A stretch of 46,224 nucleotides of DNA from the NCBI GenBank assembly GCA_902761735.1, contig CACWLL010000014.1:1-46224 (forward strand), written 5' to 3'. Made by a program: the position numbers and the translations under genes. The DNA is from an uncultured bacterium (GTDB taxonomy: Bacteria > Cyanobacteriota > Vampirovibrionia > Gastranaerophilales > Gastranaerophilaceae). Positions 25,945 to 46,144 of this stretch are shown one piece after another; position 1 is the first letter of the stretch; every line of letters starts with the position of its first letter. The notes under the pieces are model-generated. The model saw only the letters and a program-made list of their open reading frames with translations. It did not search any database and had not been told where the DNA came from.

Positions 25945-26619
25945 ATGAAATACGCTAACATAAGAGAAATATTTTTATCAATACAGGGGGAAGGTCCTTA
26001 CGTCGGACAGCAGCAGTTATTTGTGAGATTTTGCGGGTGCAATTTGAATTGCCAATTCTGTGATACCGATTTTGAAACATCAAAATCAAAACAATATACA
26101 CCTGAGAATTTGCTGCAAGAATTAAATAATTACGGTAAAAATTTGATAATATCATTGACAGGCGGAGAGCCATTGGTTTCTGTTGAATTTTTAAAGGAAT
26201 TTTTACCGCTTGCAAAAAACCAAGGGCATAAAATATATCTCGAAACTAATGGTACACTACCTAAACAATTAAAAGAAATTATTGAATATACAGATATTAT
26301 TTCTGCCGATATTAAACTATACAGTGCAACAGGTGAACGGATTGAGAACGGGATTATAGACAGCTTTTTTACTGTTGCAGCTTTAAAAGAAGTTTTTGCA
26401 AAGGTTGTCTTTGACGAGAATATAACAGAAGAAGAAATCAATAAAATTATAAACATCGGGAAAACACATAATTTACTTATAATTTTACAACCTAAAATGG
26501 TAGGAGAAAAGTTTGGGGTCCCTGTTGATTTTTGTGAAAAAATCTTGAACAGACTTCTTAAAGAATATTCTGAAGTACGTCTTATTCCTCAAGTACATAA
26601 ATTTTTAAAGATTAGATAA
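25945..26619 (+). CDS. queE: 7-carboxy-7-deazaguanine synthase QueE
   Basis: Radical SAM enzyme making the 7-deazaguanine core of queuosine (preQ0 branch). The N terminus has IQGEGPYVGQQQLFVRF, then the cluster motif C-x3-C-x2-C with Cys32, Cys36 and Cys39, followed by DTDFE and later LTGGEP. The 224-residue length is normal. The other queuosine genes (queC, queD, folE) are not in the window. It follows the DnaJ-like gene by 3 nt and may be translationally coupled to it. Confidence 0.92.
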   Translation: MKYANIREIFLSIQGEGPYVGQQQLFVRFCGCNLNCQFCDTDFETSKSKQYTPENLLQELNNYGKNLIISLTGGEPLVSVEFLKEFLPLAKNQGHKIYLETNGTLPKQLKEIIEYTDIISADIKLYSATGERIENGIIDSFFTVAALKEVFAKVVFDENITEEEINKIINIGKTHNLLIILQPKMVGEKFGVPVDFCEKILNRLLKEYSEVRLIPQVHKFLKIR

Positions 26620-41424: not shown

Positions 41425-41895
41425 CTATACAATATCAATTTTAGACGTAGAATTATTTTTCAAATATTTTTCAAATATTTCTACGGCATCACCAACCAAA
41501 TCAACACAAGGACGCTTCTTATAATACGTTTCCGTACGTTCACTCGGGTTAGGAGATGTAGAATACTCAATTCCTTGCAATAATTCTCTACAGATAATAC
41601 TCCCGTTTTTCTCCTTAAAATATTGAGCCAGCTCTTGTATCCTTTTATAATGCGCACCTTTTTCACTTGCAGAATCAGATGACGACGCAAATGCCAACCC
41701 TGCAGCCATAAACATACCGCTTACCGTGCCGCAAACTTCTCTCATTCTGCCCATTCCTCCGCCAAAAGATGATGCGATTTTCATTGCTGTACCGAAATCC
41801 AAGCCTAACTCTTCACAGAACACTCCTAATACCGCCTGTGAACAATTATACCCCTGCTTAAATAATTCTTTTGCTTTTTCTGATTTTTCGCTCAT
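41425..41895 (-). CDS. C-GCAxxG-C-C family protein
   Basis: A 156-residue small protein of a redox-type family. Conserved cysteines are visible in QGYNCSQAVLGVF, REVCGTVSG (the GCAxxG position is CGTVSG here), IICREL and RPCVDLVGDAV. The Gly-rich FGGGMGRM block is typical. The family is common in anaerobes and is thought to bind a metal or redox cofactor; its function is not established. No obvious operon partner. Confidence 0.85.
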   Translation of the reverse strand: MSEKSEKAKELFKQGYNCSQAVLGVFCEELGLDFGTAMKIASSFGGGMGRMREVCGTVSGMFMAAGLAFASSSDSASEKGAHYKRIQELAQYFKEKNGSIICRELLQGIEYSTSPNPSERTETYYKKRPCVDLVGDAVEIFEKYLKNNSTSKIDIV

Positions 41896-44136: not shown

Positions 44137-45441
44137 ATGACATCAAACATAAATTTTAGGGGCGATTTATTACAAAAAGCAGCTAATAAAAATATTGCAG
44201 ACAACAATATACAGAATAATACTACCCCTCAACCAAAAGTTGAACAATTACCTCAAGATAAACCAGATGAATTTGTGTCATCAAAAACTTCTGAGCAAAA
44301 AAATAATTCAATGCTTTACAAAATTTTAGGGGGGTTAGCGGTAATTGGAACAGTTATCGGAAGTATCCTATATCTGAGAAAAGGTAAACCTCAAAAGAAC
44401 TTAAAGCCAGAAACTGAACAGACTATGAGGCTTTTGGAAGGCAAAAAAAACAGCAATGAAAGTCAAAAAATATCCGCTACGGCAGAAGAACTTTTGAAAC
44501 GCTTCAGTGCAAAAAATTATGAGGAAGTATTAAAAGAAATTAATGATGTTCCTGAATTAAAAAATGCACTTACAAATGTATCTGTGAAAACAAATATTCC
44601 CAGAGAAGAATTAGTTGAAAAATTTAATAAAGGAGATTATGAGACAATTTCAAGCGTGCTGCAAGAAACGAGTAAAGCTCTTTATCCGTTTTTGCGTACG
44701 GGCACCAAAAATGCCGATAAAAATTGGGATATTATGATTGATTATGCAGGGAAATTAAATACAGTCATAAAAAATGAAACCCAATTAGAAACTATAAATA
44801 ATTTTAGAGCATTGGCTATTGCGCAAAAAATCAGATTTAGCAAAAATAATAAAGCCGTAGCAGAAGCCTACCACGAGCTTTTACAAAAAGAATTAAAGAA
44901 TATTTTATACAAAAACAACCCACCAAAAAGTGAACAAATCATAAAAGATTTAGCGGATAATCTTAGCTTCAATTCAAAAGCAAATTCATTATTTACCGAT
45001 GAACATAAAGAAATTATATACAACGCCCTGAAAGAATTAAAAGAATCAAAGAAAAATCTTTATTCAAAGGACGATTTAACCGAATTGGATGCATTATTCT
45101 ATGACGTACGTGAAAGATTAAATATTAGAACATTTGAAGATGTATACGAAGATATGAAGCGCAGATTTAGCCAAAGTTTTGCAGAAGAATCCACGACAAG
45201 TTCCGGAAAAGGTTCATCCGGAGCCGGAGCATCATATTTTTCAAAAGACGAAGCTATTGCAACATTAAACAGATACTCTGAGGTAAAAATTGATTCAAAT
45301 TCATCTTCAGATGAAATTAAAAAGATTTATAGAAAAATCATTATAAAATACCACCCAGACAGAGCTCCGCAAGACAAAGTACAAGAATATACCACAATAT
45401 GCCAAAAAGTGACAGAGGCATATGACAATTTGAAAGCTTAA
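44137..45441 (+). CDS. Membrane-anchored protein with C-terminal J domain
   Basis: A 434-residue protein with reversed DnaJ layout. Residues 1-10 contain a NINFRGD motif. A single span lies at about 60-80 (MLYKILGGLAVIGTVIGSILYL). A long helical region follows (90-350), then a Ser/Gly-rich linker (353-372), and a J domain at 377-434 with HPD at 406-408. The intact HPD suggests it recruits DnaK to a membrane-bound client. No zinc finger or substrate-binding domain is present. AGGAAAATTTTA precedes the ATG. It is probably specific to this bacterial group. Confidence 0.78.
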   Translation: MTSNINFRGDLLQKAANKNIADNNIQNNTTPQPKVEQLPQDKPDEFVSSKTSEQKNNSMLYKILGGLAVIGTVIGSILYLRKGKPQKNLKPETEQTMRLLEGKKNSNESQKISATAEELLKRFSAKNYEEVLKEINDVPELKNALTNVSVKTNIPREELVEKFNKGDYETISSVLQETSKALYPFLRTGTKNADKNWDIMIDYAGKLNTVIKNETQLETINNFRALAIAQKIRFSKNNKAVAEAYHELLQKELKNILYKNNPPKSEQIIKDLADNLSFNSKANSLFTDEHKEIIYNALKELKESKKNLYSKDDLTELDALFYDVRERLNIRTFEDVYEDMKRRFSQSFAEESTTSSGKGSSGAGASYFSKDEAIATLNRYSEVKIDSNSSSDEIKKIYRKIIIKYHPDRAPQDKVQEYTTICQKVTEAYDNLKA

Positions 45442-45587: not shown

Positions 45588-45683
45588 TTAGTTTTCTGTT
45601 GTTAATTCTTCCCAAATGCTGGGCACTACAATTAAAGCAGTGTATACAATGAAACCAAACAAGATTAAGTTAATAGCTTCCAT
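45588..45683 (-). CDS. 31-residue single-span membrane peptide
   Basis: A short ORF of 31 codons with an ideal AGGAGG Shine-Dalgarno 6 nt before its ATG. It encodes one hydrophobic helix (residues 4-22, starting INLILFGFIVYTAL) with a short acidic C-terminal tail (EELTTEN). It has its own upstream T/A-rich promoter-like region. Its shape is that of small membrane-complex subunits or regulatory micropeptides, but I recognise no named family. The clean translation signals are the main reason to believe it. Confidence 0.6.
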   Translation of the reverse strand: MEAINLILFGFIVYTALIVVPSIWEELTTEN

Positions 45684-45787
45684 GATAAACCTCCTAAAGT
45701 TTTTCATGTTATATATCAGACCATTACACATATATTATAACATATATTAATAGAAAATGTAACCCCCTATAATAATTAATTTTTATG

Positions 45788-45793
45788 TATAAT
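45788..45793 (+). promoter_or_regulatory. -10 box before the zinc-ribbon gene
   Basis: A perfect TATAAT ends 6 bp before the ATG at 45800. The -35 is weak. This argues that the upstream in-frame ATG at 45785 is not the start, since it lies before the -10 box. Confidence 0.5.
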
Positions 45794-45799
45794 AGAGAA

Positions 45800-46144
45800 A
45801 TGGAAACTATACTTAAGAAAAAACTAAGAATACTGCTTGATAATCTTTGCTGCGCACATTGCAAAAACAGCTTTGATGAAGACTCTGTTACTCTGCTGCA
45901 AAAAGAAAAAGGTTTATTTGTAATTAATCTGATATGCAAAAAGTGCGGGAAAGATTTTGGGATTGCTTTTATTGGAACGCAATCAACTATAAGTAAATCA
46001 ACCCCTCTGGAGATACAAGACGGTCCCGAGCCAATTAATTATAATGATGTAATCGATGCTCACCGATTTATAAAAGATTTGGACGAGCATTGGAAAGAAC
46101 GCATTAAAGAAATAGATATTAACCCTATGCCTGATAAATTTTAA
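45800..46144 (+). CDS. Zinc-ribbon protein of unknown function
   Basis: A 114-residue protein with two CxxC knuckles (CAHC near residue 18, and CKKC near 46) that form a typical four-Cys zinc ribbon, followed by a small beta segment and a C-terminal helix (DVIDAHRFIKDLDEHW). I place the start at 45800 because the -10 box overlaps any earlier start. It overlaps the convergent partial gene by 20 bp. It could bind nucleic acid or a protein partner; the family is not recognised. Confidence 0.7.
   Translation: METILKKKLRILLDNLCCAHCKNSFDEDSVTLLQKEKGLFVINLICKKCGKDFGIAFIGTQSTISKSTPLEIQDGPEPINYNDVIDAHRFIKDLDEHWKERIKEIDINPMPDKF

Follow-up and report, generated by a model that had tools for sequence, protein, structure and literature searches.

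A conserved gene for a 31-residue, predicted single-helix membrane protein in Gastranaerophilales-type bacteria

Introduction

The locus considered here raises the question of whether an ORF of 31 codons is a genuine gene and, if so, what kind of membrane protein its product might serve. The window, that is, the whole stretch of DNA analysed, has a length of 46,224 bp and represents one contig (CACWLL010000014.1) of a genome with a size of 2.0 Mb (GCA_902761735.1). A first-pass annotation, made from the sequence, took the ORF for a genuine short gene whose product belongs to, or regulates, a membrane complex and proposed a comparison with the small subunits of cyanobacterial membrane complexes, should the host be a non-photosynthetic relative of cyanobacteria. 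To our knowledge, gut cyanobacterial relatives have been little studied experimentally.

Results and Discussion

Gene, start signal, and local layout

The ORF extends from 45683 to 45588 on the minus strand and encodes MEAINLILFGFIVYTALIVVPSIWEELTTEN followed by a stop codon (Table 1). The ATG occupies positions 45683-45681, the stop codon ends at 45588, and the product has 31 aa. The strand was not stated in the first-pass annotation; a plus-strand reading of 45588-45683 was ruled out by stops. The AGGAGG motif noticed earlier is confirmed, with a spacer of six bases (TTTATC) before the ATG. The ORF is the only AGGAGG-led membrane-type ORF of 24-60 aa in the window, while 60 windows simulated by a Markov model with matching dinucleotide content contained a mean of 0.017 and a maximum of 1 such ORF.

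Table 1. Features of the peptide locus in the window.
Feature	Position	Strand	Basis
CDS, 31-aa single-helix membrane protein (predicted), stop codon included	45588..45683	(-)	Translation, family conservation, purifying selection, frame control
Shine-Dalgarno AGGAGG	45690..45695	(-)	Sequence; GGAG within 16 bases of the start in 75/75 homologues examined
Promoter-like site (GTTACA, 18 bp, TATAAT, TG before the second hexamer)	45734..45763	(-)	10/12 matches
J-domain protein, convergent downstream neighbour	44137..45441	(+)	Pfam DnaJ, E 3.1e-10
Divergent neighbour, 114 aa, two CxxC pairs (zinc-ribbon-like), C-terminal DDVIDAHxFI-type helix	45800..46144	(+)	ORF 45785-46144

The gene lies in a gap of 343 bp between the end of the J-domain gene (45441) and the next ORF (45785). 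The description of this region as otherwise empty holds for the gap itself, whereas the ORF at 45785 turned out to be a conserved divergent neighbour. The J-domain gene adjoins the peptide gene in only the window and genome G007 among 34 neighbourhoods and is not generally conserved there; its 434-aa product carries the J-domain at the C-terminus, seems by eye to have one membrane helix at the N-terminus, and shows a sub-cut-off similarity to DUF3887. Elsewhere in the window, a putative redox protein of the C-GCAxxG-C-C family is encoded at 41425-41895 (-) beside bioD and bioA.

The peptide gene is probably transcribed on its own. The number of promoter-like sites around it was not above that in shuffles. 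By eye, a TATAAT-like element recurs upstream of the peptide in many of 33 genera; the upstream motif search returned this general element alone, and the copy upstream of the window peptide is the 16th-ranking match within the window. The top window match to the element (16 bits), at 26223 (+), is located inside the ORF 25945-26619.

Coding reality and selection

The selection analysis was restricted to 31-aa proteins that match M[ED]x[IF][NS]L (the core form); the 94 sequences of this kind reduce to 76 different DNA versions encoding 13 proteins. Over the 76 DNA versions, the mean pS was 0.571, the mean pN 0.037, and the mean pN/pS 0.065; owing to this restriction, the values describe the core form and understate the divergence of the family. 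Variable sites at codon positions 1, 2, and 3 numbered 14, 8, and 28 of 31, respectively, and the annotated frame was the only one free of stops in all 76 versions. The window copy differed from four same-genus copies (L002, L003, L005, and L006) with a pS of 0.50-0.60 and a pN of zero, and from six other copies with a pN of 0.02-0.14. In an ungapped comparison of 11 same-genus loci, nucleotide identity was 0.86 within the ORF, 0.62 in the preceding 46 bases, and 0.30 just downstream.

Apart from the short length, nothing favours a chance ORF or a non-coding regulatory element at this position. Such a reading is refuted by the coding-like pattern of substitutions over codon positions, and both the frame control and the random-sequence control are contrary to it, so that its probability is practically nil. 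Frame conservation, whose absence in close relatives the first-pass annotation had named as refuting, was found across the 76 DNA versions and 13 proteins and, together with purifying selection and family-wide profile matches, bears out the genuine short gene. The tiny gene is real and is kept almost unchanged by selection in the core group.

Distribution

A first search of 57 genomes gave matches in 37 at E<=10, some of them by chance: those in G036, G042, and G053 were judged so by eye from the translations, and the match in G019 was replaced by a copy beside the zinc-ribbon gene of that genome. A 20-row profile (A2) was then searched against 382 genomes of the class at E<=0.1, and 273 genomes matched. 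In the host family (f1), which probably corresponds to Gastranaerophilaceae, the peptide was found in 266 of 276 genomes, with G392 reaching no better than E 0.09, and mostly with one match per genome (these two counts, and those of 193 and 73 f1 genomes given below, were tallied by hand from the result tables). Two genomes of the sister family f7 matched at E about 6e-13, and in a third (G047) the copy next to the zinc-ribbon neighbour gene is more diverged. At the phylum level, 167 of 386 genomes matched at E<=0.01, namely 165 of f1 and 2 of f7, with no match outside these families at this threshold. Weak profile matches outside f1 and f7 occurred in G070, G071, G077, G116, and G134; the four inspected were taken as chance, none having a divergent zinc-ribbon gene, and the match in G070 overlaps an ORF read as metG.

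From the homologues of the divergent neighbour gene, 80 of 274 relatives were kept as named records, mostly of Candidatus Gastranaerophilales, the others being generic or mislabelled. The host is thus a Gastranaerophilales-type ("Melainabacteria") bacterium, and the earlier supposition of a non-photosynthetic cyanobacterial relative proved correct. This non-photosynthetic group is the one treated in PMC3787301, where gut Melainabacteria are reported to be obligate fermenters that lack photosystems, b6f, and cytochromes but have a complex I in their genomes.

The gene persists in genera where the neighbours differ. Nevertheless, it can be lost or moved, because three of the four peptide-less genomes of genus g42 keep the usual neighbour gene without the peptide: the place is taken by a different sequence in G361 and by another gene in G360, and no start is present in G384. 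The occurrence in nearly all f1 genomes and the near absence of amino-acid change in the core clade point to a function that cells with small genomes rarely give up.

Protein anatomy

The peptide has one hydrophobic stretch, with a best 19-residue Kyte-Doolittle mean of 2.3, followed by the acidic tail EELTTEN. AlphaFold predicted one helix over residues 2-30 with a mean pLDDT of 94.2; the model was built from nine near-identical alignment rows and therefore says little beyond the helix. The membrane helix and acidic tail of the first-pass annotation are both recovered. As a short ORF under selection (pN/pS and frame control) with one predicted transmembrane helix (hydropathy and AlphaFold), the peptide belongs with the small single-pass membrane proteins of about 50 aa or less.

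Conservation along the helix was examined in a hand-picked table of 44 proteins spread over genera, with the register set on Tyr and Pro. Tyr14 and Pro21 are invariant in all 44, as the register imposes; the same invariance was seen in a 20-row MAFFT alignment built without this rule. Position 25 is Glu or Asp in 43 of the 44 proteins, position 10 is Gly or Ala in 42, and Leu6 is retained in 40. Positions 6, 10, 14, 17, 21, and 25 share one helix face. Conserved positions recur with a periodicity near 95-100 degrees per residue, the pattern expected if a single face of the helix is buried; the permutation p of 0.01 at 100 degrees is generous because the sequences are related.

No Lys or Arg precedes the helix in the 44 proteins, and 48 occur in the 15 residues after Pro21, distributed over 32 proteins; from this, the C-terminus is likely to be inside. 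Acidic residues show the same trend, with 87 after the helix and 39 before it, so the topology is read from Lys and Arg alone. The peptide would accordingly insert as one helix with the N-terminus outside and the C-terminus in the cytoplasm. A His is found within the last four residues in 21 of the 44 proteins.

Database matches and known small proteins

The window peptide has no match in Pfam or NCBIfam, and among the open-licence papers listed by literature searches, no title or abstract opening dealt with its gene. Several weak matches were not taken as relations of the peptide or its relatives: PHROGs without an assigned function (best E 0.0069); scattered matches to YldA, Fun_ATP-synt_8, Papilloma_E5, PycTM, and FeoB_associated (0.0064-0.16); and MtrF and others (0.015-0.09). 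The family is thus one not named by Pfam or NCBIfam. It may belong to the conserved small-protein families that microbiome catalogues list without names; PMC11364881 cites a study that found 4539 conserved families in the human microbiome, 30% of them predicted to be membrane or secreted.

Being short and hydrophobic, with one helix and a strong ribosome-binding site, the peptide resembles membrane-active peptides such as type I toxins or holins. Such a role is nonetheless very unlikely. The gene is nearly family-wide and slowly evolving; besides the lack of a Pfam or NCBIfam match for the window peptide, its relatives have only weak, scattered matches, the best to Papilloma_E5 (E 0.0064) and one to a PycTM effector (0.065), and the sole Rfam match at the locus falls well short of the gathering score.

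Three known small proteins were compared with the peptide. MgtS of E. coli, a membrane protein, has the same length (31 aa), the comparison being one of size. CydX, the small subunit of cytochrome bd oxidase, is of similar size and likewise has one helix with a Gly in it and a Glu/Asp about 15 residues later. However, the CydX motif YxxWxxGx15E/D (PMC4325964) does not fit the peptide, in which no conserved Tyr or Trp precedes Gly10 and the invariant Tyr follows it (44-protein table). The operon with cydAB is also lacking: the flanking J-domain and zinc-ribbon genes are both on the other strand, and cydAB was not found among the neighbouring genes scanned. AcrZ (49 aa), which modulates the efflux pump AcrB in E. 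coli, resembles the peptide in being a separately encoded single helix with a proline in it, which in AcrZ matters for binding (PMC7267776). No sequence relation between the two was found, and the proline of the peptide is invariant and, on the predicted topology, near the cytoplasmic end. According to the same source, the P16A substitution abolished the two-hybrid interaction of AcrZ with AcrB, while glycine and most shifted prolines were tolerated; an invariant proline is therefore not the requirement of AcrZ itself.

Comparison with cyanobacterial complexes

The phylogenetic position of the host and a similar size and layout would suit a peptide derived from, or related to, one of the small subunits of a cyanobacterial complex (NDH-1, photosystem, or b6f). 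The link is not supported. NuoH/NdhA (PF00146) was not found in the host genome or 12 congeners, whereas 11 of 14 control genomes matched, which rules out NuoH as a partner and, for this genome, NDH-1 as the setting. NuoH is present in 8 of 34 f1 genomes, in all three f7 genomes, and in the majority of genomes from families that do not have the peptide; because it is scattered in f1 and common in peptide-less families, the two do not track each other. The peptide profile matched no PDB chain at E<=10, and no photosystem or b6f small-subunit family was among the weak Pfam (20 members) or NCBIfam matches. With the confinement of the peptide to f1 and f7 in the phylum search, a cyanobacterial subunit is largely refuted and highly improbable.

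The divergent zinc-ribbon neighbour

The start of the divergent neighbour at 45800 was preferred over 45785 because most homologues begin near the former. The protein has no Pfam or NCBIfam family above the cut-off. Its matches are PHROG 1305 'DNA binding protein' (E 9e-5), scattered weak ones to zinc-ribbon models, and a slight similarity to Trm112 that turned up repeatedly (NCBIfam E 0.013; PDB chain 6zxw_H E 0.09). The predicted model has a mean pLDDT of 76; its best Foldseek E was 0.17, and the best VIA-align result was again the Trm112 chain 6zxw_H, with a Z of 3.8 and an rmsd of 3.0 over 52 aligned residues.

Linkage was tabulated, with positions transcribed by hand, for 145 genomes in which both genes were listed, two of them of f7 and the others a part of the 193 f1 genomes with the zinc-ribbon gene; the adjacency limits were 600 and 700 bp. 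The zinc-ribbon gene (about 110 residues) is divergent from and adjacent to the peptide gene in 135, at distances of 78-277 bp except for one of 663 bp, which passes the second limit only. The two genes are apart in G002, G160, G213, and four genomes of genus g9; three further non-adjacent cases (G081, G118, and G284) stand at contig starts and may be cut. Among the named loci, 75 of 80 have the peptide beside the zinc-ribbon gene, and the other five have <=165 bp of contig upstream.

The neighbour reaches further than the peptide. It was found in 266 of 382 class genomes, including families without the peptide, and in 13 phylum genomes among 194 searched outside the class. Within f1, it is present in 193 genomes; by subtraction, 73 of the 276 f1 genomes have the peptide and no detectable zinc-ribbon gene, although very diverged copies are possible. 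The peptide therefore does not require this neighbour, and in such genomes, where examined, it lies near rpsP, rpsM, coaX, and other genes (named from sequence). The zinc-ribbon gene is likewise absent from all ten peptide-less f1 genomes. This co-loss counts for less as evidence of a link because five of six tested genomes without both genes also lack a nearby bioA; in the sixth (G001), bioA is present and no peptide was found on a stretch ending about 1.1 kb past it. Segments that were lost or left out of the assemblies may account for much of the joint absence.

These data bear on the proposal that the zinc-ribbon protein has the peptide as its membrane partner, with one promoter region shared by the two genes and the peptide anchoring the protein or signalling to it. 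The frequent divergent adjacency, its recurrence in f7, and the absence of the neighbour from peptide-less f1 genomes speak for it. Against it stand the f1 genomes that keep the peptide alone, with other contexts in those examined, the occurrence of the neighbour in families without the peptide, the 10 of 145 genomes lacking adjacency (three possibly cut), and the confounding by bioA. A dedicated partnership thus seems unlikely, and the zinc-ribbon gene, though the strongest individual candidate for a functional link, is not a required one.

Proposed function

The best reading is still that the peptide is part of, or regulates, a membrane protein, close to the first-pass proposal of a membrane complex, and the conserved face and invariant proline fit docking. 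The peptide is probably, if narrowly so, a lineage-specific small membrane protein with its own transcript and an N-out/C-in helix, acting as an accessory subunit or modulator that docks through the conserved proline face. The docking face would consist of Leu6, Phe9/Gly10, Tyr14, Leu17, Pro21, and Glu25, the invariant proline might set a bend, as AcrZ lies in a groove of AcrB, and the partner would be a larger integral membrane protein common to nearly all family members.

The near-universal presence in f1, the low pN/pS of the core form, the invariant Tyr14 and Pro21, the periodic conservation, the Lys/Arg pattern, and the persistence where neighbours differ all argue for docking, with AcrZ P16A as a precedent (PMC7267776). 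Several observations weigh on the other side. No partner gene accompanies the peptide in all genera, the conserved face could also serve self-association, and three g42 genomes have the usual neighbour without the peptide beside it. The generous p value for periodicity, the reading of topology from Lys and Arg with acidic residues following the same trend, and the tolerance of AcrZ itself for glycine in place of proline (same source) also temper the docking reading. More tentatively, the common ancestor of f1 and f7 could have gained the peptide as an extra subunit of some ancient and nearly universal machine of the membrane (the translocon, ATP synthase, an efflux pump, or a membrane protease), and the peptide would since have become near-indispensable in f1.

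The length of the peptide is not uniform over the family. Some genera have a C-terminal extension ending in NSYGK-like letters. In L198, L201, L206, and L212 (genera g21 and g44), the extension is conserved (EEFKxxYFxHLxxxxxNSYGK-like) and brings the protein to roughly 50 aa in all.
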